Assembly: GCA_949290575.1 (NCBI GenBank)
Contig: CASESJ010000003.1
Coordinates: 124,001-188,000, forward strand
DNA length: 64,000 bases
Origin: an uncultured Clostridia bacterium
GTDB lineage: Bacteria; Bacillota; Clostridia; Christensenellales; Borkfalkiaceae
Reading direction: 5' to 3'
Each line of letters opens with the position of its first letter. The stretch's first letter is position 1. A model generated the notes under the pieces. It had not been told where the DNA came from. It saw only the letters and a list, made by a program, of their open reading frames with translations, and did no database searches. Positions 1 to 9,402 of the stretch are shown here, in pieces. The position numbers and the translations under genes were made by a program.

Positions 1-423
1 ATAGTAAAAAATTTCTTAAAGCCCTCGTCATCGGTGACATACAAAACTAAGTTGTATTTATAAGGGTAAAATAATTTTAATGATATTTATCTCAAAATTG
101 TACACCGTTTTAAAATTGAGTGTGATTTTATTGATTATTTTGTGAATTTATTCAAATTAACAGAGTGGAAAATTGTATCACGCAAAATACATATTTATAT
201 CAAAAAAACAGAAAATTGATTGACAAAACAGATATTATTTGTTACTATTCATATAACATTATTCACATGATTTTTAGATGGCTTTTTGTGCTCAGGACGG
301 GAAAAGCGGTGGATTAATCTTTGTCGGATTATCTGCAGAAACGAGAAAATCATGTGAGTAATGAAGTTGCTTTTTATGTTAAAGTAAAGAGTATTGATTT
401 TACACTAATTTTGGGAGGATTTT
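1..423. other. AT-rich intergenic region upstream of opp operon
   Basis: This stretch is AT-rich and I find no convincing gene in it. A 60-residue reading frame at 321-503 overlaps the oppA start in another frame and looks like chance. The only clear signals are a sigma-A type promoter at 220-248 and the oppA ribosome binding site at 413-419. The first 180 bases show no recognisable coding end or terminator. Confidence 0.6.
220..248 (+). promoter_or_regulatory. sigma-A promoter of opp operon
   Basis: TTGACA at 220-225, 17 bp spacer, TACTAT at 243-248. Transcription would start near 255, leaving an untranslated leader of about 170 nt before oppA. Confidence 0.6.
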
Positions 424-2505
424 ATGAAAAAAATTGTAAAATCAACAGTTGCAATCGCTTTGGGCTGTGTAATGACCCTCAGTATGGCTGCATGCGGAGA
501 TAGCGGTAACTCGAATAAAGTAGTTATTGGCAGCGTTACCGAAGCTTCCGGCGATTTCCGTTTCCCTGCGGCGTATGGTGGTTCGAGTGTTGGTGCGGCA
601 GATCAGGATATATCCGGAATGTCCAATGGCTATGAGACTATGTCTGTAAATCAGAATGGTTCTTATGTCTGGAACGAAACCGTTGTTAAGTCTCACAGTG
701 AAACCGAAAATCAAGACGGTACTTATACAATAGAGATGGAAATTAATCACGGACTGCTTATGAGCAACGGCGAAGAAGTAAAGGCTATAAATTACCTTGT
801 ATATTCGCTCGTTTTCTCTACGCCTGTTTCTAAGGCTGCCGGCGCAAGCGGTATGGCAGGTAATGTATTTGTCGGATTTGATGAATTCTCGGCATACACA
901 GGCAATGCAACAACGCCTGTCAAGTTTACAGGTCTCAAATTGCTCAGCGAATATAAGTTCTCTGTGACGATTTCGTCAGATTATTATCCTTATTACTTTG
1001 CTTATGTCTACGGTGCTATTTCGCCCTATGACCTTGAACTTACGGCAGGCGATGCTGACTATGTAAAGGCGGACGAGACAGGTGCTTGGCTCGATAATGA
1101 ATTCTATGCAAAGACGGGTGACACATATGACAGCGTAGCTCATCTGCAAAAAGCGAGATATGACATTTCCACATATCCTTATACAGGTGCATATGTCATA
1201 AGCAAATGGGATGCTGCGACTAAGGAGACGACTCTCACACTGAACCCTAATTTTGCAGGTAACTTCGAGGGACAGAAACCCCATATTGAAACTGTCGTTT
1301 ATAAATATGTTGTTTCAGAAACTCAGATTTCTCAGCTTAAATCAGGTCAGGTAGATATTATTGAAGGTATTACGGGCGGCGACGAGACAAAACAAGCTCT
1401 CGATGTAATAAATGAAAGTCCCGATAAGTTCAAGGAAAACCATTTTGACAGAGCAGGCTACGGTAAAATCCAGTTCGACTGTGACTTTGGTCCCACAATG
1501 TTTGCAGAAGTTCGTCAGGCAGTAGCTTACAGCTTTGACAGGAATGATTTCGCTCAGAGTTTCACCGGCGGCTATGGTGCTCTCGTAAACGGTCCTTATT
1601 CGACCAACTTTGAGGCATATATGAACAACGCTGAAGAAATCGAAGATAGCCTTAACTCGTATGCTTTCTCGGTAAACAATGCAAAGCAGGTGCTTATTGA
1701 TGGTGGTTGGATTTATAATTCCAAGGGTCAGTCCTTTGTGGAAGGTCAGTCAGGCGTTGACAGCGTAAGATATAAAAAACTTACAGCAGAAGAAGCTACT
1801 GATGTAAATAAAAACTATCAGTCGGTACGCAATGAAGACGGTATTGTCTATAAAACTGTCAACATAAACGGCGAATACTATATGCCACTGGTAATCAACT
1901 GGTTCTCGTCAGAAGATAACCCTGTATCCGACCTTCTCGTAACAATGCTTCAGAAAGCTTCGTCGCTCACATCTATTGGCATGGTTATCCGTCAGGAAGT
2001 CGGTTCGTTTACTCAGCTCACCGGTGAAATTTACAGAGAACCTACTTTTGGCTACAGCGGTACGCCCACTTACGGCATGTTTAACCTTGCAACGGGCTGG
2101 AATAGTGAAATCTACGATTACTCGTATAACTGGAGCCTTGATGAAACATGGTTTGATTACAGTGTAAACAAGCTGTATGATGAATATGACAAGGCATATC
2201 CTTACTACGATAATGACGGAAATCACGAAGTAAAGACATACGAAGAGGCTATGGAAGAATCCGATGGCAAACTCGGTATGGACTATATCTCCATGGCAAT
2301 GGTTTACGACGCAACTACCAAGGAAGAGTATGAAAAGTGGTTTGTAGCCTATATGCTTCGTTGGAACGAGCTGATGCCCGATATTCCTCTGTACAGCAAT
2401 ATCTACTACGACATATATAATGCGGATATTGTCGGCTATGAAACATCGCCTTTCTTTGGCGCTGCTGAAGCAATAATTTATTGCTCATTGGCATCTGCAC
2501 AGTGA
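424..2505 (+). CDS. oppA: oligopeptide ABC transporter substrate-binding lipoprotein
   Basis: A 693-residue extracytoplasmic solute-binding protein of the SBP_bac_5 (OppA/DppA) family, the peptide receptor of the importer encoded just downstream. The N-terminus is a lipoprotein signal: two lysines, a hydrophobic stretch and a lipobox ending MAAC with the modified cysteine at residue 24, so it should be tethered to the outer face of the membrane. It is somewhat longer than the usual 500-600 residues. The ATG is preceded by a good GGGAGGA site at 413-419. It is separated from oppB by 132 bases containing a hairpin, a common way to make the receptor more abundant than the permeases. Family is secure from context and fold-level similarity; peptide specificity is unknown. 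Confidence 0.9.
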   Translation: MKKIVKSTVAIALGCVMTLSMAACGDSGNSNKVVIGSVTEASGDFRFPAAYGGSSVGAADQDISGMSNGYETMSVNQNGSYVWNETVVKSHSETENQDGTYTIEMEINHGLLMSNGEEVKAINYLVYSLVFSTPVSKAAGASGMAGNVFVGFDEFSAYTGNATTPVKFTGLKLLSEYKFSVTISSDYYPYYFAYVYGAISPYDLELTAGDADYVKADETGAWLDNEFYAKTGDTYDSVAHLQKARYDISTYPYTGAYVISKWDAATKETTLTLNPNFAGNFEGQKPHIETVVYKYVVSETQISQLKSGQVDIIEGITGGDETKQALDVINESPDKFKENHFDRAGYGKIQFDCDFGPTMFAEVRQAVAYSFDRNDFAQSFTGGYGALVNGPYSTNFEAYMNNAEEIEDSLNSYAFSVNNAKQVLIDGGWIYNSKGQSFVEGQSGVDSVRYKKLTAEEATDVNKNYQSVRNEDGIVYKTVNINGEYYMPLVINWFSSEDNPVSDLLVTMLQKASSLTSIGMVIRQEVGSFTQLTGEIYREPTFGYSGTPTYGMFNLATGWNSEIYDYSYNWSLDETWFDYSVNKLYDEYDKAYPYYDNDGNHEVKTYEEAMEESDGKLGMDYISMAMVYDATTKEEYEKWFVAYMLRWNELMPDIPLYSNIYYDIYNADIVGYETSPFFGAAEAIIYCSLASAQ

Positions 2506-2549
2506 TAATATTCGCGTCTGAAAATATTATTATTTGTTAACAATTCAGT

Positions 2550-2582
2550 TGAGCCGCAATATACTGAGCATGTTGCGGCTCA
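2550..2582 (+). terminator. hairpin between oppA and oppB (partial terminator or mRNA stabiliser)
   Basis: A 10-bp perfect stem (TGAGCCGCAA at 2550-2559 with its complement at 2573-2582) around a 13-nt loop, followed by a weak T-rich stretch (ATAATATTTT). Since oppB-F follow without another obvious promoter, it probably reduces read-through or protects the oppA 3' end. Confidence 0.5.
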
Positions 2583-2637
2583 TAATATTTTATAATGTTA
2601 AAACTAACAATCCGCGCATGTGGAACAATGGTGAATT

Positions 2638-3669
2638 ATGGCTAAATATTTAATCAAACGAATACTTTATATGTTGCTTGTGATGATTATATTATCGCTG
2701 CTAATGTATGTAATTTTCAGTCTGATACCGTTTGACAGGGCGCGCGTTCTCGCGGATGCACAGAAAAATAATTTTAAAAACGACCCTGACGGTCCTGCAA
2801 AATTAGAGGCGTTGTATCAATCATATCGTGTGCAACTCGGTTTGGATAAAAATGTGTTGGAGCGTTATCTTATGTGGTTGGGGCTGATGCCTTTAAACGG
2901 AAAGTTTAATGGCATATTGCAGGGCAACCTCGGAACGAGTTACACTACCATTCAACAGCCTGTAATCGATGCTGTAAAAGAACCGATGCAGAATACAATT
3001 TTCATGAATATATTCGCAACTATCCTTGCGCTCGGGATAACTATACCGCTTGGCATATTTTGTGCGGTAAAAAAAGGTAGTAAGCGTGATACGGCTATTC
3101 AGGTTGGCACAATAATAGGTTATAGTATGCCTACATTCATAACGGCAATACTTTTCATTTTCCTTTTCGCTGTAGCAATTCCAATATTTCCTGTTTCCGG
3201 CATGCAAACAAGCGGAGCTGATTACACTGGTTTTAGAGCTTTTGCCGATAAATTATATTATCTTGCTCTGCCTTTGATAGTAATGACATTCTGTTCATTG
3301 GGCGGAATGACAAGATACGTGCGAGCGTCTATGATAGAGGCACTTTCTATGGACTGTATTCGTACGGCAAGAGCGAAAGGTTTGCGTGAGAGAACGGTTA
3401 TTTATTCTCATGCATGGAGAAATGCACTTGTACCGATTGTTACACTTATTATTGGTTGGTTCTTAAGCATATTCTCCGGCTCGATGATGATAGAAAATAT
3501 TTTTGGTATAAACGGCGTTGGTAAATTTTATATTACCGCGCTTACAGGAAACGATTACGATGTAGTGCTTGCCCTGCAGATGTTTTATGTCTTTATTGCT
3601 CTGCTCGGCAACCTGATTATAGATATAACTTATGGTCTTATAGACCCCCGCATAAGAATTTCTAAGTAA
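2638..3669 (+). CDS. oppB: oligopeptide ABC transporter permease OppB/DppB
   Basis: A 343-residue inner-membrane permease. The first transmembrane helix covers about residues 10-31 (ILYMLLVMIILSLLMYVIF), followed by an external loop containing the GNLGTSY segment typical of OppB, then five further helices. The cytoplasmic EAA coupling loop is visible as CIRTARAKGLRERTVI near residue 240, which docks to the ATPases. Length and architecture are normal, in contrast to the next gene, its partner permease. It starts with ATG; the ribosome binding site is poor. Third gene-order position and the short 11-base gap to the OppC gene support a single operon. Confidence 0.92.
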   Translation: MAKYLIKRILYMLLVMIILSLLMYVIFSLIPFDRARVLADAQKNNFKNDPDGPAKLEALYQSYRVQLGLDKNVLERYLMWLGLMPLNGKFNGILQGNLGTSYTTIQQPVIDAVKEPMQNTIFMNIFATILALGITIPLGIFCAVKKGSKRDTAIQVGTIIGYSMPTFITAILFIFLFAVAIPIFPVSGMQTSGADYTGFRAFADKLYYLALPLIVMTFCSLGGMTRYVRASMIEALSMDCIRTARAKGLRERTVIYSHAWRNALVPIVTLIIGWFLSIFSGSMMIENIFGINGVGKFYITALTGNDYDVVLALQMFYVFIALLGNLIIDITYGLIDPRIRISK

Positions 3670-3680
3670 CGAGGTAGATT

Positions 3681-6149
3681 GTGGATAAAAAAGATATGAA
3701 TACCGAAGAAAAACTTAATTCAACATCTACCGAGGCGCGCGAAGAGGTAAAAACTGCCAATGCTGCAGACCCTGTGCAGACGAAACCTGTGACAGGAACG
3801 CGCAAGAAGGCTGGTGTTGCAAAGAATAGTTCTCAGTCGAAGTCGGATGTTGCAGCGGAAGTCAGTGACCGTGAAGTGCAGGCTGAGAAAAAATCTGTTG
3901 ACGCTGCAGACCCTGCGCAGACGAAACCTGCGGCAGGAACGCGCAAGAAGGCTGGTGTTGCAAAGAAGAGTTCTCAGTCGAAGTCATATGTTGCGGAAGC
4001 AGACGTACAGGAAGCACAGTCCGAGGCAAATGTTGATGTGAAAGCAGACGTACAGGAAGCACAGTCCGAGGCAAATGTTGTTGCGGAAACAGAGGTCCCG
4101 GGTACGCAGATCCAGGAACAAAAAGCCCAGAGCAAATTTGTTTTATTCTTTAAGGCTCTCGGTAAAAATACGGTAAAGAATTTTAAACTTGCAGGCAAAA
4201 CTATTTGGCGTTGGGGCAAATATGCATTTGTGGGCGGTAAAGCAAAAGAACTTTCTATGGCGGAAAAACTTGCTGTAGAAAAAATCGAAAATCCTACAAA
4301 GATGATTGTTAAAAATTTCTTTAGCAGGAAGCTTTCAGTAATATCGCTTATATTCCTTGTGGCAATGTTTTTATTTGTGTTTATAGGTCCTGCTGTCAAT
4401 CCTATAGATCTTAGCTATACGGAATCACTGCATCAGAACCTTGCCCCCGGTTTTAGCATGCTGAGTGTTCCGAATGAGCTTAAAAACAATGTCGATACCA
4501 TATCATCTTTCAGCTTTTATTCCGTAGGACTTTCGGATGACGGCAAGGTATATACTTGGGGCAATACAGCTCTCATTAACTCGACGAACAATTCAGATAT
4601 GTCAAAACTTCCCTCGGAACTGACAAAAAGCAAAGTAAGATTTGTTTCTGCCGGTTATAATCATGCTATTGCTATCACGGAAGAAGGCAAGGTTGTAGGC
4701 TGGGGTGAAAAGGCTAACTCGCAGTACGGACATGGCGGCAGTATGTCTGGTACTTCTCAGGTAATAGAAATGCCCGATGAGCTGATTGAAGGAACCATAG
4801 ATGTCGATCAGGTCAAACAGCTGGAATGTGGCTATCAGGTTACGGCTATAGTTATGAAAGATGGAAGCTGTTACTACTGGGGCAACAAATCCGGCGCATC
4901 CAATTTAACACTTTTGCGCAATGGCAACATGGATTATGTTGCATTCACTAATTCATCGGTAGTTGCAGTTGATAAGGACGGCAAATTACAACTTGGCTCA
5001 AGCAAGTCTCAGTACGATAGTATAACTTTAACGGATGAAGATGGCAATACCATTCTTGACGAGAACGGTCAGGTTAAATTCTTCTCGCTGACAGAAGATT
5101 ACCTTGCTGATAAAACCATTAAAAAAATAGCTACTACAAGTACATCTATCGCTATACTCACCACTGATAATAAACTGATTGTTTCGGGTGTTGTCACGAG
5201 TTCAGCCAACAAGGTAATAAATCAGCCCTCGATTAAAGATGAAACAATAATCGACATTATGGGTGGTGCAAAGCATTATACTGTACTTACAGACAAAGGC
5301 AATATATATTCATGGGGTGATAATAACCTCGGTCAATGTAATTCACCGTCCTCTGTGTCAGGTGCGGCATCTCTTGAAGGCGGAGCTTTCCAGACTTATG
5401 TTCTTAACAAAGATGGCAAAATTCTCGAAAGTTGGGGTCTGAAAGGTTATCTTATGGGTACTGACGATCAGGGACGCGATGTTGCAACTCGTGTTATGAA
5501 CGGCGGTAAAATGACGATGACCATAGGTGCTGTGGCAGTTATTATTTCTTCGATCATCGGTATCATCGTCGGTTGTCTCGCGGGCTATTTCGGAGGTTGG
5601 GTAGATATGCTATTGATGAGAGTTACGGAAGTATTCTCTTCGCTGCCTTTCCTGCCGTTTGCGCTGATACTTTCTGCCGTTCTTGCGGGAAGCAGCGTAA
5701 GTGAAACAACGCGAATATTCATTATAATGGTAGTGTTAGGATTGCTATCATGGACAGGTCTTGCGCGTATGATCAGAGGTCAGGTTCTTGCTGAAAGAGA
5801 GAAAGAATTTGTAACTGCGGCAAAAGCGATGGGTGTAAAGGAATCCAAGATAGCTTTCAAGCACATTCTGCCTAATATAATATCTATAATTCTAGTGAGT
5901 ATGACGCTTGACTTTGCGGGCTGTATGCTTACTGAGGCGTCGCTGTCATATTTAGGATTCGGCGTTCGATTGCCAAGTCCTACATGGGGTAATATGCTTA
6001 ACGGTTGTAATAATGAAGTGGTTATCGCGAACTATTGGTGGAGATGGTTGTTCCCTGCGTTATTCCTTTTGCTCACAACTATAAGCATAAATATAATAGG
6101 TGACACTCTTAGGGATGTCATGGACCCTAAATCTTCATCTGAGAGGTAG
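3681..6149 (+). CDS. oppC: OppC-type permease with RCC1-like propeller inserted in its first external loop
   Basis: An 822-residue protein; ordinary OppC is about 300. Residues 1-150 are a hydrophilic, repeat-containing Ala/Lys/Glu-rich tail. A transmembrane helix follows at about 217-238 (FSRKLSVISLIFLVAMFLF). Residues about 272-588 hold seven RCC1-type repeats, recognisable by DGKVYTWG, EGKVVGWG, DGSCYYWG, DKDGKLQLG, DNKLIVSG, KGNIYSWGDNNLGQC and DGKILESWG, each preceded by a GYNHAIAI-like strand. The last repeat runs directly into LMGTDDQGRDV, the conserved OppC segment before helix 2. The remaining C-terminal part is a normal permease core with EAA loop EFVTAAKAMGVKESKI. The propeller therefore sits between helices 1 and 2, outside the cell. 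Start is GTG at 3681 behind GAGGT. One uninterrupted frame argues against an artefact. Confidence 0.9.
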   Translation: MDKKDMNTEEKLNSTSTEAREEVKTANAADPVQTKPVTGTRKKAGVAKNSSQSKSDVAAEVSDREVQAEKKSVDAADPAQTKPAAGTRKKAGVAKKSSQSKSYVAEADVQEAQSEANVDVKADVQEAQSEANVVAETEVPGTQIQEQKAQSKFVLFFKALGKNTVKNFKLAGKTIWRWGKYAFVGGKAKELSMAEKLAVEKIENPTKMIVKNFFSRKLSVISLIFLVAMFLFVFIGPAVNPIDLSYTESLHQNLAPGFSMLSVPNELKNNVDTISSFSFYSVGLSDDGKVYTWGNTALINSTNNSDMSKLPSELTKSKVRFVSAGYNHAIAITEEGKVVGWGEKANSQYGHGGSMSGTSQVIEMPDELIEGTIDVDQVKQLECGYQVTAIVMKDGSCYYWGNKSGASNLTLLRNGNMDYVAFTNSSVVAVDKDGKLQLGSSKSQYDSITLTDEDGNTILDENGQVKFFSLTEDYLADKTIKKIATTSTSIAILTTDNKLIVSGVVTSSANKVINQPSIKDETIIDIMGGAKHYTVLTDKGNIYSWGDNNLGQCNSPSSVSGAASLEGGAFQTYVLNKDGKILESWGLKGYLMGTDDQGRDVATRVMNGGKMTMTIGAVAVIISSIIGIIVGCLAGYFGGWVDMLLMRVTEVFSSLPFLPFALILSAVLAGSSVSETTRIFIIMVVLGLLSWTGLARMIRGQVLAEREKEFVTAAKAMGVKESKIAFKHILPNIISIILVSMTLDFAGCMLTEASLSYLGFGVRLPSPTWGNMLNGCNNEVVIANYWWRWLFPALFLLLTTISINIIGDTLRDVMDPKSSSER
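3762..3985 (+). repeat. direct repeat (83 bp, two copies) in the OppC N-terminal tail
   Basis: 3762-3844 and 3903-3985 are nearly identical, offset by 141 bp (47 codons). Both encode ADP-QTKP-GTRKKAGVAK-SSQSKS, a basic Ala/Lys/Ser-rich module. The exact multiple of three keeps the reading frame, suggesting recent in-frame duplication. Confidence 0.85.
3999..4080 (+). repeat. 45-bp tandem repeat in the OppC N-terminal tail
   Basis: The unit starting GCAGACGTACAGGAAGCACA at 3999 recurs at 4044, a period of 45 bp (15 residues, ADVQEAQSEANV plus three). It is acidic where the preceding repeat is basic. Confidence 0.85.
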
Positions 6150-6153
6150 TGCA

Positions 6154-7185
6154 ATGCCTTTATTAGAAGTTAAAAATCTCCACACCTATTTTAAAACCAA
6201 AAAGGGTATAGTCAAGGCGGTAAATGATGTATCATACACTCTTGAACCCGGTAAAACTATCGGCATAGTCGGTGAATCGGGCTCGGGAAAGAGCGTATCG
6301 GCAATGAGTATTTTGCGCTTGCTCGATGGCAACGGCTATATTGATGATGGAGAAATTCTTTTTGAAAATAATGGAACAGTAGAGGATTTGACAAAAATAC
6401 CTCTCAACAGAATGTATGAGATAAGAGGCAATCAGATTTCTGTAATATTTCAGGAACCGATGACATCTCTCAACCCTGTATTTTCAGTAAAGCGACAACT
6501 TTCCGAGCCATTCATAATACATCGTGGCATGAACAAGAAGCAGGCAGCTATAGAGGCGGTTAAAATGCTTGAAGCTGTGCAAATTCCCAATCCGGAAGCG
6601 GTGGCGAAGCAATATCCTCATCAGTTATCAGGCGGTATGCGACAGCGCGTAATGATTGCCATGGCGTTGGCTTGCAGACCTAAAATTCTTATTGCTGATG
6701 AGCCTACAACTGCGCTTGATGTAACGATACAGGCACAGATACTCAAGCTGATGAATGATCTTCAGCGCGAAAACGGCACTTCGATAATATTTATAACTCA
6801 CGATTTGGGCGTCATAAATGAAATGGCAGACGACGTGGTTGTAATGTATTGCGGACAGGTAGTAGAAAAGTCATCGGCAAGGAAGATATTTACCGATTGT
6901 AAGTTCAGTCATCCTTATACCGAAGGTTTGATGTATTCTATCCCCAGAATGGAAAATGTCGGACAAAAACTTGAACCCATCCCGGGTGCAGTTCCCCATC
7001 CGCTTGCCTTGCCTAAGGGTTGTAAATTTGCTCCCCGCTGCAAATATTGTACCAATAAGTGCATAGAGGAAGAACCGCAACTTAACGAATATGAGCCTGG
7101 TCAGCTTATAAGATGTTTCTATCCCAACAAGGAGGTGAGGAGAAGTGCCGAGCACAAAGAAATTACTGTCAATTACCAATCTTAA
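6154..7185 (+). CDS. oppD: oligopeptide ABC transporter ATP-binding protein OppD
   Basis: A 343-residue ABC ATPase that powers peptide import with OppF. Visible motifs in order: Walker [10 protein letters not shown]-loop [10 protein letters not shown], signature LSGGMRQRV, Walker [13 protein letters not shown], and switch histidine in FITHDLG. The C-terminal oligopeptide-transporter domain has a four-cysteine cluster ([14 protein letters not shown]), a motif that binds a [4Fe-4S] cluster in some OppD/DppD proteins. I chose the ATG at 6154, behind GAGAGGTAG at 6141-6149 and right after the oppC stop, rather than the upstream frame opening at 6100 inside oppC. Length is normal. Confidence 0.93.
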
Positions 7186-8797
7186 AAAATATTTTCCGAT
7201 AGCAAAGACTTCTCTTTTTCAGAAAGAACGCCTCTATGTCCGCGCGAACGAAGAAATAACGCTTGATATCAACGAAGGTGAAACCTTTGGTCTGGTAGGT
7301 GAGTCCGGGTGCGGAAAATCTACTCTTGGCAGGGTAATTTTGCAACTCTACGACCAGACCGCCGGTAATACCATGTATTACGGCAGGACGATATATGAAA
7401 TTGCTCCGAAGTATGTAAAGAAAACTTTGAAAAATGCTGAAAGGTATGTTTCGCTTTACAAAAATGCCCAGGCAAAGGCAGACAGACTTGTAAAAGAGTG
7501 TGAGGATTTGGGGGATGAGGCGACGTTTTTTCAGCTTCAGGAGAAAAATCTTGCTGTTGCAAATGCACAGTCTGCGCTTCAGAGAGTAGCCAAAATACTC
7601 GGCGGTTTCACTTTCGTTCCGGAAATAAAGCAGGGTGCGGCAATCTTGCTCAAAAAACACAGCAGCCATGTAGCAATTACGCGCTACAATAAAAAACTCC
7701 GCGTTATAGAGCTTAAAGTTGAAACTGTCAATGCACATATTGAAAAAAAGATCAGCAAAAACAGTAAAGCGCAGCTGGCGGAAAAGTGGTTGAATTATCT
7801 TACAGCTAAGAAATTGCATCTTGAGCATAAACTTGAAAAAGAACAAGCGCGGTGCAACAGCATAGAACAGGAATTGCAGGCACTCAAAGAAAAACTCAAG
7901 GATAATGCAGATTTTGTAGAGTATGAGAAGTATCTTGATGACGGTATAGACCTCTCCTGCTTGACATATAACGAAATGCGGTTTCTTAGAAAGGATTTGC
8001 AGATAATTTTTCAGGACCCGTACTCATCTCTTGATCCCAGAATGACCATAGGTCAGATAATCGAAGAAGGACTTGTTACACACAAGTTTTTCAGACATGG
8101 TTCTGCTAAGATGCGCGAATATATTCTGAAGACAATGAACGATTGCGGCTTGCAGGATTATATGCTTCACAGGTATCCCCATCAATTCTCAGGCGGACAG
8201 AGACAGCGTATATGCATTGCGAGAGCTCTTGCTGTTAAACCTAAGTTTATCGTGTGCGATGAATGCGTGTCCGCGCTGGATGTGTCAATACAATCGCAGA
8301 TAATTAACTTATTGCAGGAGTTGCAGAAACGGGAAAAATTCACATATCTTTTTATTTCGCATGACTTGTCTGTTGTAAGATATATATCTAACCGCATAGG
8401 CGTAATGTATCTCGGCAATATAGTAGAAATGTCGGATGCAGAAAGTATATTTAAAGACCCCAGACATCCTTACACTGTTGCGTTGCTTAGTTCCATACCA
8501 ACAACAGACCCGAACGATCTTCAAAAAGAAAGAATTATTCTTGAGGGAAATATACCTAGCCCCATACGCCCGCCTTCAGGTTGCAAGTTCCACACGAGAT
8601 GTTTCATGGCGTGCGAAAAGTGTAAGCGCGTCCCTCCTCCCGTAGTGGAAGTGAGTGAAGGGCATTTTGTGGCATGTCATTTCCCTGAGAGAAAAATTGA
8701 CGAAAACGGCAATTATCTTTTTGAAATTCCTAAGACTGAGAAGAAATCAACTAAGTTGGATGACCTTGACGATATGACTGCTAAGGTTAAAAATTGA
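7145..8797 (+). CDS. oppF: oligopeptide ABC transporter ATP-binding protein OppF with a long helical insertion
   Basis: A 550-residue ABC ATPase; OppF is normally about 320. Walker A (GESGCGKST) lies near residue 55 and the Q-loop [10 protein letters not shown] near 290, where a usual OppF has only about 45 residues between them. About 190 residues (roughly 80-272) are therefore inserted; they are rich in Lys, Glu, Gln and Leu with heptad-like spacing ([20 protein letters not shown]), suggesting a coiled coil. The rest is standard: signature FSGGQRQR, Walker [13 protein letters not shown] (Cys in place of the usual Pro region), switch histidine ISHDLS, and a C-terminal [14 protein letters not shown] cysteine group. 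GTG start at 7145 behind AAGGAGGTGAGG; it overlaps the oppD end by 41 bases. Confidence 0.9.
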
Positions 8798-9000
8798 CAA
8801 TGCTTTTTTGGAACAAATTAAAAAAATACGATAAAAAAGAGCAGGAAAAGAAAGAGGAAGAAATAGGTAAGCTCGGGCATCTTGAAAGAAAGGATATTTT
8901 TGCAATGATAATATCGGCATTATTTACGATAGTGCCTATATGTCTGCTTGTGCTTTTAGGTATTTCTTTCTTCTCGCTCTGGGTGTTTGGTTTGTTATAA
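8794..9000 (+). CDS. small single-span membrane protein, unknown function
   Basis: A 68-residue protein with a highly charged N-terminal half (KKYDKKEQEKKEEE) and one or two hydrophobic helices in the C-terminal half (about residues 36-67, ending at the stop). It begins with TTG at 8794, overlapping the oppF stop as TTGA, or with ATG at 8800; AAGGT at 8783-8787 fits the TTG better. Tight coupling to oppF and the position before the operon terminator suggest a role with the transporter, but I recognise no family. Confidence 0.6.
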   Translation: MTMLFWNKLKKYDKKEQEKKEEEIGKLGHLERKDIFAMIISALFTIVPICLLVLLGISFFSLWVFGLL

Positions 9001-9018
9001 TTTTATATCGGTTAAACT

Positions 9019-9050
9019 TAATGCGTCGCAAAATTTTTTGCGGCGCATTA
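9019..9050 (+). terminator. stem-loop ending the opp operon
   Basis: TAATGCGTCGCAAAA at 9019-9033 pairs with TTTTGCGGCGCATTA at 9036-9050, with one U-G pair. The tail is T-rich but not a clean U-run. Confidence 0.6.
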
Positions 9051-9402
9051 TTAATTATATAGTTTTTAAATATGTGTTTTAATAAATTATATAATAAACT
9101 AAACATAAGTAAAAACAACATATGGACAAACAGTATAAAAATTGATACAATAAGTTATATGAACAATGTGTGCGCGCTTATAAATATTTAACCTTAAAGA
9201 CTGTTCAATTGCTTTAACATTTTATCAGTATTTTCAGAATATAGAATAAAATATATTTAATAATTTTGAAATTAATTACAGTATGACCAGATGCTTTTTG
9301 TAAAAAATTTAAAAATTTTTGCGTTAAGTGACTAAGTTACAGAAAAGCGGGTTTTTCTCTGTTATAATGTCAGTGTAAATAACAGAAAGGAGAACTTTAA
9401 AT
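9051..9402. other. AT-rich intergenic region before trxA
   Basis: No gene is visible. It holds a TATAAT at 9363-9368, with no good -35 at normal spacing, and the trxA ribosome binding site AAAGGAGA. The composition changes here from the AT-rich opp cluster to the GC-rich remainder of the window. Confidence 0.5.

Follow-up and report, generated by a model that had tools for sequence, protein, structure and literature searches.

How does a propeller of the RCC1 type come to sit inside a permease of an oligopeptide importer, and what could it do there? The question is raised by the oppC gene of an uncultured Clostridia bacterium, located in a window of 64,000 nucleotides (contig CASESJ010000003.1, positions 124,001 to 188,000). 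A first-pass annotation of this window had described an OppC of normal type with a seven-repeat propeller between its first two transmembrane helices (TM1 and TM2). The sequence firmly indicates this architecture: one frame with both domains, in an oppABCDF operon, with conserved junctions and within one clade of OppCs. It is a real and widespread variant of the Opp importer, common to many gut Clostridia and undescribed within the literature searched. No account of an OppC with RCC1 repeats was found in the open-access literature searched, in agreement with the earlier statement, made from recall, that no ATP-binding cassette (ABC) importer of such arrangement had been described. The coordinates of all features are given in Table 1.

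The frame contains no internal stop and GAGGT sits 5 nucleotides ahead of its GTG start (3681). On the single chain, Pfam detects OppC_N (residues 205-256), RCC1-type repeats from residue 264 and BPD_transp_1 (residues 627-817). Four models exceed their cut-offs: OppC_N (34.4 bits against 23.9), BPD_transp_1 (120.7 against 26.4; E 7.6e-35), RCC1_2 (84.8 against 22; E 2.4e-24) and RCC1 (25.9 against 21.7). The RCC1-like domain model WD40_RLD stays under its own (120.7 against 150 bits; E 1.2e-34). By their E-values these matches are beyond chance, and with OppC_N and BPD_transp_1 flanking the repeats the permease is otherwise OppC-like, as annotated. The insertion after TM1 was borne out as well, with a length of about 325 residues (264-588) rather than about 315. 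The best NCBIfam model is Opp4C, under its cut-off (298.9 against 350 bits). Models of the nickel type, within the same superfamily, match as well; peptide transport is predicted. The OppC core is predicted to be intact and the propeller to lie outside the membrane, as the annotation had it, by homology to OppC of known topology.

Seven repeats are present. The exact motif DGKxxxWG, formerly attributed to all of them, occurs by eye in repeat 1 only. The dipeptide WG ends repeats 1, 2, 3, 6 and 7 (by eye) and is lacking in repeats 4 (DGKLQLGS) and 5 (DNKLIVSG), and a strict seven-fold motif is therefore too stringent. In the AlphaFold2 (AF2) model, DSSP assigns seven blades of three strands, in line with the proposed seven-bladed propeller; the third strand of blade 4 has two residues only. 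The predicted domain aligns with BLIP-II (52-311, root-mean-square deviation (rmsd) 2.5) and UVR8 (15-366, rmsd 3.3), the alignments of Foldseek on the same chains giving rmsd 6.6 to 8.6. The propeller fold is a strong prediction of the model; the alignments with BLIP-II and UVR8 suggest that the ring may be closed. Compared with propellers of the RCC1 family (BLIP-II, UVR8, RCC1 and HERC2), the window domain differs in being part of a polytopic permease, in its degenerate blades 4 and 5 and in missing the WD40_RLD cut-off. There is no reason to expect from it either Ran exchange or beta-lactamase inhibition.

The architecture recurs in relatives. BPD_transp_1 and RCC1 models occur together in 110 of the 117 listed homologues, and one further listed homologue (P0110) combines OppC_N with RCC1. 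The architecture is visible in domain annotation; where a name is given, such proteins are called ABC transporter permease subunit. A scan of the genome collection recovered 23 loci from named records, one of them Acetatifactor muris strain DSM 23669. All 23 loci share the junction [WF]-G-L-[KD]-G-Y-[LI]-[MF]-G-T-D. This recurrence, together with that in the single-contig genomes G496 and G514, rules out an assembly chimera, a doubt that had been raised with the initial description.

Surveys were made at E<=1e-100, with two or three candidates scored per genome and the genome of the window counted in each. The propeller OppC was found in 34 of 396 genomes (24 of 142 genera) of the order, in 17 of 391 genomes (12 of 222 genera) of the class and in 7 of 299 genomes of the phylum, five of them outside the class. 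Every match lies in an open frame that is 609 residues long or longer, and at this threshold and depth no close relative without a propeller was detected. The genome of the window gave a single match at E<=0.001 (four candidates scored). Presence throughout the genus is ruled out: among same-genus genomes in the 150 relatives, with up to six candidates scored in each, only that of the window had a match covering the propeller, and in the others the match was confined to the permease core or there was none. The five opp genes are complete and full-length in 60 of 73 stretches with a propeller OppC; in the other 13, genes are split, too short or truncated where a contig or locus ends.

A tree of the permease core was built after removal of the insert, leaving out four OppCs without the motif (L111, L114, L115 and L097). 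It separates 41 propeller rows from 18 non-propeller rows on one branch (support 100/100), which fits a single origin of the propeller clade. Secondary loss could have occurred elsewhere, since the sampled non-propeller rows are distant. In the genome of the window, vertical descent is doubtful. The guanine plus cytosine (GC) content of the operon is 0.42 against 0.53 for 9300-64000, and positions 1-9300 form a low-GC island. Because GC is low and changes near the operon borders, because, by path length, the rows closest to the OppC core are L102-L104 of other families (f19 and f24), and because the family-mates L109 and L113 fall in a supported six-row set without the window, the operon was probably acquired by transfer. 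The window itself belongs to no supported small set. No mobile gene was seen by eye among frame starts across the 12 kb upstream, where no family search was made.

The function of the propeller was approached by rate covariation. Branch lengths were fitted for each part on one fixed tree from OppB, the OppC core, OppD and the OppF core. The 73 propeller operons were reduced to the 60 complete ones and, after removal of 12 near-copies, to 48; five loci with solitary or very distant OppA (L168, L169 and L171-L173) were excluded. OppA was aligned separately (alignment A2, the OppA of the window and 50 of 64 listed frames). Over 93 branches, the partial correlations were 0.84 for OppD-OppF, 0.60 for OppB-OppC core, 0.60 for OppA-propeller and 0.37 for OppA-OppB, whereas the propeller and its own permease core gave 0.09. 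The OppD-OppF and OppB-OppC core pairs lie side by side in the solved DppABCDF, where the scoop of DppB also reaches into the cleft of DppA, in agreement with the OppA-OppB value (PMC12136057). The OppA-propeller value was 0.60 with log-transformed and 0.53 with rank-transformed data; it was 0.55, 0.58 and 0.48 on middle, end and inner branches, and 0.51, 0.52 and 0.36 when three further topologies were used. The covariation is not due to speed alone, because a fast cytosolic insert of OppF tracks OppF (0.51) and OppD (0.32) rather than OppA (-0.03) or the propeller (0.15). When OppB was split, the propeller gave 0.27 to 0.28 with the outside segment and 0.05 with the helices. The data therefore delineate an outside module of OppA, the propeller and the OppB segment, of which a direct OppA-propeller contact would be the plain reading.

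In view of this covariation and of the precedents of AmiC/AmiD and MalF-P2, we propose, with slightly better than even confidence, that the propeller is a docking platform that receives OppA and orients it over the OppB/OppC pore. The support is independent but indirect; the initial interpretation, which had named substrate, a cell-wall ligand or OppA as possible partners, holds overall. The propeller would hold OppA on the OppC side, the OppB TM1-TM2 segment would enter the OppA cleft in the manner of the E. coli DppB scoop, and ATP-driven opening would then pass the peptide. On OppC the propeller would thereby play the part proposed for ECD1/ECD2 on AmiC, and that of MalF-P2 towards MalE.

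The Opp and Dpp systems of E. coli and M. tuberculosis (OppABCDF, DppABCDF and OppABCD) have a short TM1-TM2 segment in OppC/DppC and no propeller; their whole chains of about 280 residues align with the window OppC model. The pneumococcal Ami system resembles that of the window: it is a peptide importer in which a permease bears large domains outside the cell. AmiC is the OppB-side subunit and bears ECD1/ECD2 on residues 31-278, whereas the window insert is an RCC1-like propeller on OppC, at the position of the AmiD coil. MalF-P2 resembles the propeller as a domain inside a permease; its importer family, loop and fold are different. On the basis of AF-Multimer, ECD1/ECD2 are proposed to act as a clamp on the binding protein, whose lobe 2 faces the TM1-TM2 coil of AmiD in the model (PMC11192437), and MalF-P2 is a periplasmic domain within the permease that contacts MalE (PMC3150292). 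These clamps may serve as a working analogy for the propeller, not as homology.

Several observations weigh against a docking platform. On the OppD+OppF topology, OppA-propeller (0.36) falls below OppA-OppB (0.51) and propeller-OppF reaches 0.28. Over the variants, propeller-own core ranges from 0.03 to 0.25; with ranks, propeller-OppB is 0.27, and with logs the control pair OppB-core drops to 0.34. The p-values assume independent branches. With lobe limits that we take from family knowledge, the propeller gave 0.40 with OppA lobe 1 and 0.28 with lobe 2, whereas lobe 2 is where the OppC-side coil lies in the pneumococcal model. Both lobes covary, and the data do not localise docking to one of them. 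Co-occurrence of OppA and propeller is expected within one operon and has little weight alone. In searches with two candidates scored per genome, three genomes had an OppA-type match and no propeller OppC match: in G202 it lies at the edge of a contig, and in G123 and G145 it is weak and solitary. A second OppA-type gene of G232 (L169) is solitary too. In E. coli, Dpp achieves docking of its binding protein without a propeller-like domain (PMC12136057). Finally, since all members of the module are extracellular, shared outside pressures (host, pH, proteolysis) could make their rates covary, and such shared selection is the main alternative to direct contact.

Among other roles, the propeller might bind an outside ligand (cell-wall polymer, host glycan or mucus protein) and anchor the importer where peptides are released. 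We consider this unlikely: propellers often bind ligands, and this one evolves fastest among the six parts compared (tree length 23.9, with 10.0 for the OppC core), which would suit an outward receptor, but it changes in step with OppA, is hardly faster than it (21.1), and Pfam detects no cell-wall or carbohydrate domain in the five operon proteins. Somewhat less probable again is a second peptide receptor or gatekeeper, binding peptides in the tunnel or at the rim, handing them over to OppA or the pore, or excluding long ones. A common substrate would also make OppA and the propeller covary, and in alignment A1 (92 rows, the window piece and 91 of the 117 listed homologues) near-invariant residues share one loop position in five neighbouring blades: the position of Y280 is F in 87 of 92 rows, and H328, Q386, H532 and Q571 are each kept in at least 89. 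However, blades 4 and 5 vary at this position, H is the usual RCC1 residue there, and the argument from a conserved face is ambiguous because the conserved residues are partly the usual RCC1 ones; no role of the RCC1 fold in import is known to us. A neutral or structural ornament without a role beyond stability is the least probable, for although related OppCs carry other large inserts in the TM1-TM2 loop, which is therefore permissive, one clade over many families retains the propeller, its rates follow those of OppA strongly and no loss was seen in the surveys, where a shorter second copy could be missed.

Propeller and docking apart, the same OppC loop carries an unannotated ectodomain of about 200-290 residues in L093 (3593-5359), L086, L085, L099, L090, L091 and L094. 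In L093 it is predicted to consist of alpha-beta-beta(-beta) units instead of a propeller, in another OppC clade. No Pfam domain was detected in this insert, and the 50 structure matches listed are all importer permeases, which does not show a new fold. The ectodomain is present in at least 120 OppC records, perhaps thousands (alignment A3 comprises the seven loci and 57 of 120 listed homologues). Inserts of about 530 and 400 residues were estimated in the OppCs of L096 and L097. We give an even chance to the broader proposal that, in a whole clade of clostridial importers, the propeller forms an integral receptor to which the binding protein docks, and that the TM1-TM2 loop is a landing site for at least two unrelated ectodomains, docking being rebuilt lineage by lineage. 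In relatives of solved structure, it is a short stretch of one permease that contacts the binding protein; larger cases are MalF-P2 and the domains proposed for AmiC. A propeller in a permease, retained over many families and changing in step with OppA, would demonstrate that importers of this kind can gain whole binding domains on their outer face. The propeller OppC is a direct test case for recognition of the binding protein by the permease, and points to the uncharacterised ectodomain in those other records.

Table 1. Position of the features in the window.
Feature	Position	Strand	Remarks
Promoter-like site upstream of oppA, TTGACA-17-TACTAT	220..248	+	consensus match only
oppA, substrate-binding protein family 5, 693 aa, proposed propeller partner	424..2505	+	PF00496 3.7e-22; covariation
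13-pair hairpin between oppA and oppB	2550..2582	+	sequence match only
oppB, permease	2638..3669	+	PF00528 3e-36, PF19300
oppC with RCC1 propeller insert	3681..6149	+	822 aa, GTG start, one reading frame
N-terminal extension, residues 1-204	3681..4292	+	predicted cytosolic, Lys/Ala-rich, repeated stretch
OppC_N / TM1, residues 205-256	4293..4448	+	PF12911 2e-8; helix in model
RCC1-like propeller and entry linker, residues 257-588, predicted seven-bladed	4449..5444	+	Pfam, AF2 model, structure alignment
Blade 1	4491..4562	+	DSSP strands, model residues 87-110
Blade 2	4635..4706	+	DSSP strands, model residues 135-158
Blade 3	4812..4886	+	DSSP strands, model residues 194-218
Blade 4, degenerate, no WG	4929..4991	+	DSSP strands, model residues 233-253
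Blade 5, degenerate, no WG	5118..5189	+	DSSP strands, model residues 296-319
Blade 6	5247..5321	+	DSSP strands, model residues 339-363
Blade 7	5370..5438	+	DSSP strands, model residues 380-402
Conserved junction WGLKGYLMGTDDQGRD	5433..5480	+	near-identical in 23 loci; conserved columns in alignment A1
OppC permease core, TM2-TM6	5457..6146	+	
oppD, ATPase, ATG at 6154	6154..7185	+	PF00005 1e-28, PF08352
oppF, ATPase with insert of about 190 residues between Walker A and Q-loop	7145..8797	+	PF00005 in two stretches
14-pair terminator-like hairpin 3' of oppF	9019..9050	+	sequence match only

The five-gene set (binding protein, two permeases and two ATPases with oligo_HPY) is complete in 424-8797, in the same order as in related loci. 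The genes indicate an Opp/Dpp-type ABC importer, with a putative peptide substrate. PADLOC gave no match, and terminator-like sites are about as frequent as in shuffles (7 against 7.4). The N-terminal extension sets the window OppC apart, as most listed homologues are shorter (about 600-720 aa); two near-copies of the Lys/Ala-rich stretch TKPxxGTRKKAGVAK were seen in it by eye (3681-4292).

Other propeller loci vary in their gene content. In Acetatifactor muris a further oppABC set lies divergently beside the first (L051, 1-4669, minus strand); its OppC, cut by the stretch end, also has a propeller, and L043 (95-2452, minus strand) shows a similar OppA. In L168 (1-1266, minus strand, cut by the contig end), a far more distant OppC with RCC1 repeats (108 bits to the query) adjoins its own OppA and OppB; it may represent a second propeller lineage of deeper origin, and the genome has the main one too. 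In L170 (2962-7279), a tandem pair of OppA-type genes precedes one propeller permease, and one platform may therefore serve two binding proteins. The OppF insert (about residues 74-264, charged by eye) is present in 44 of the 48 propeller operons compared. It is missing for example in L047-L050 (OppF of 337-355 aa) and is therefore separable from the propeller.
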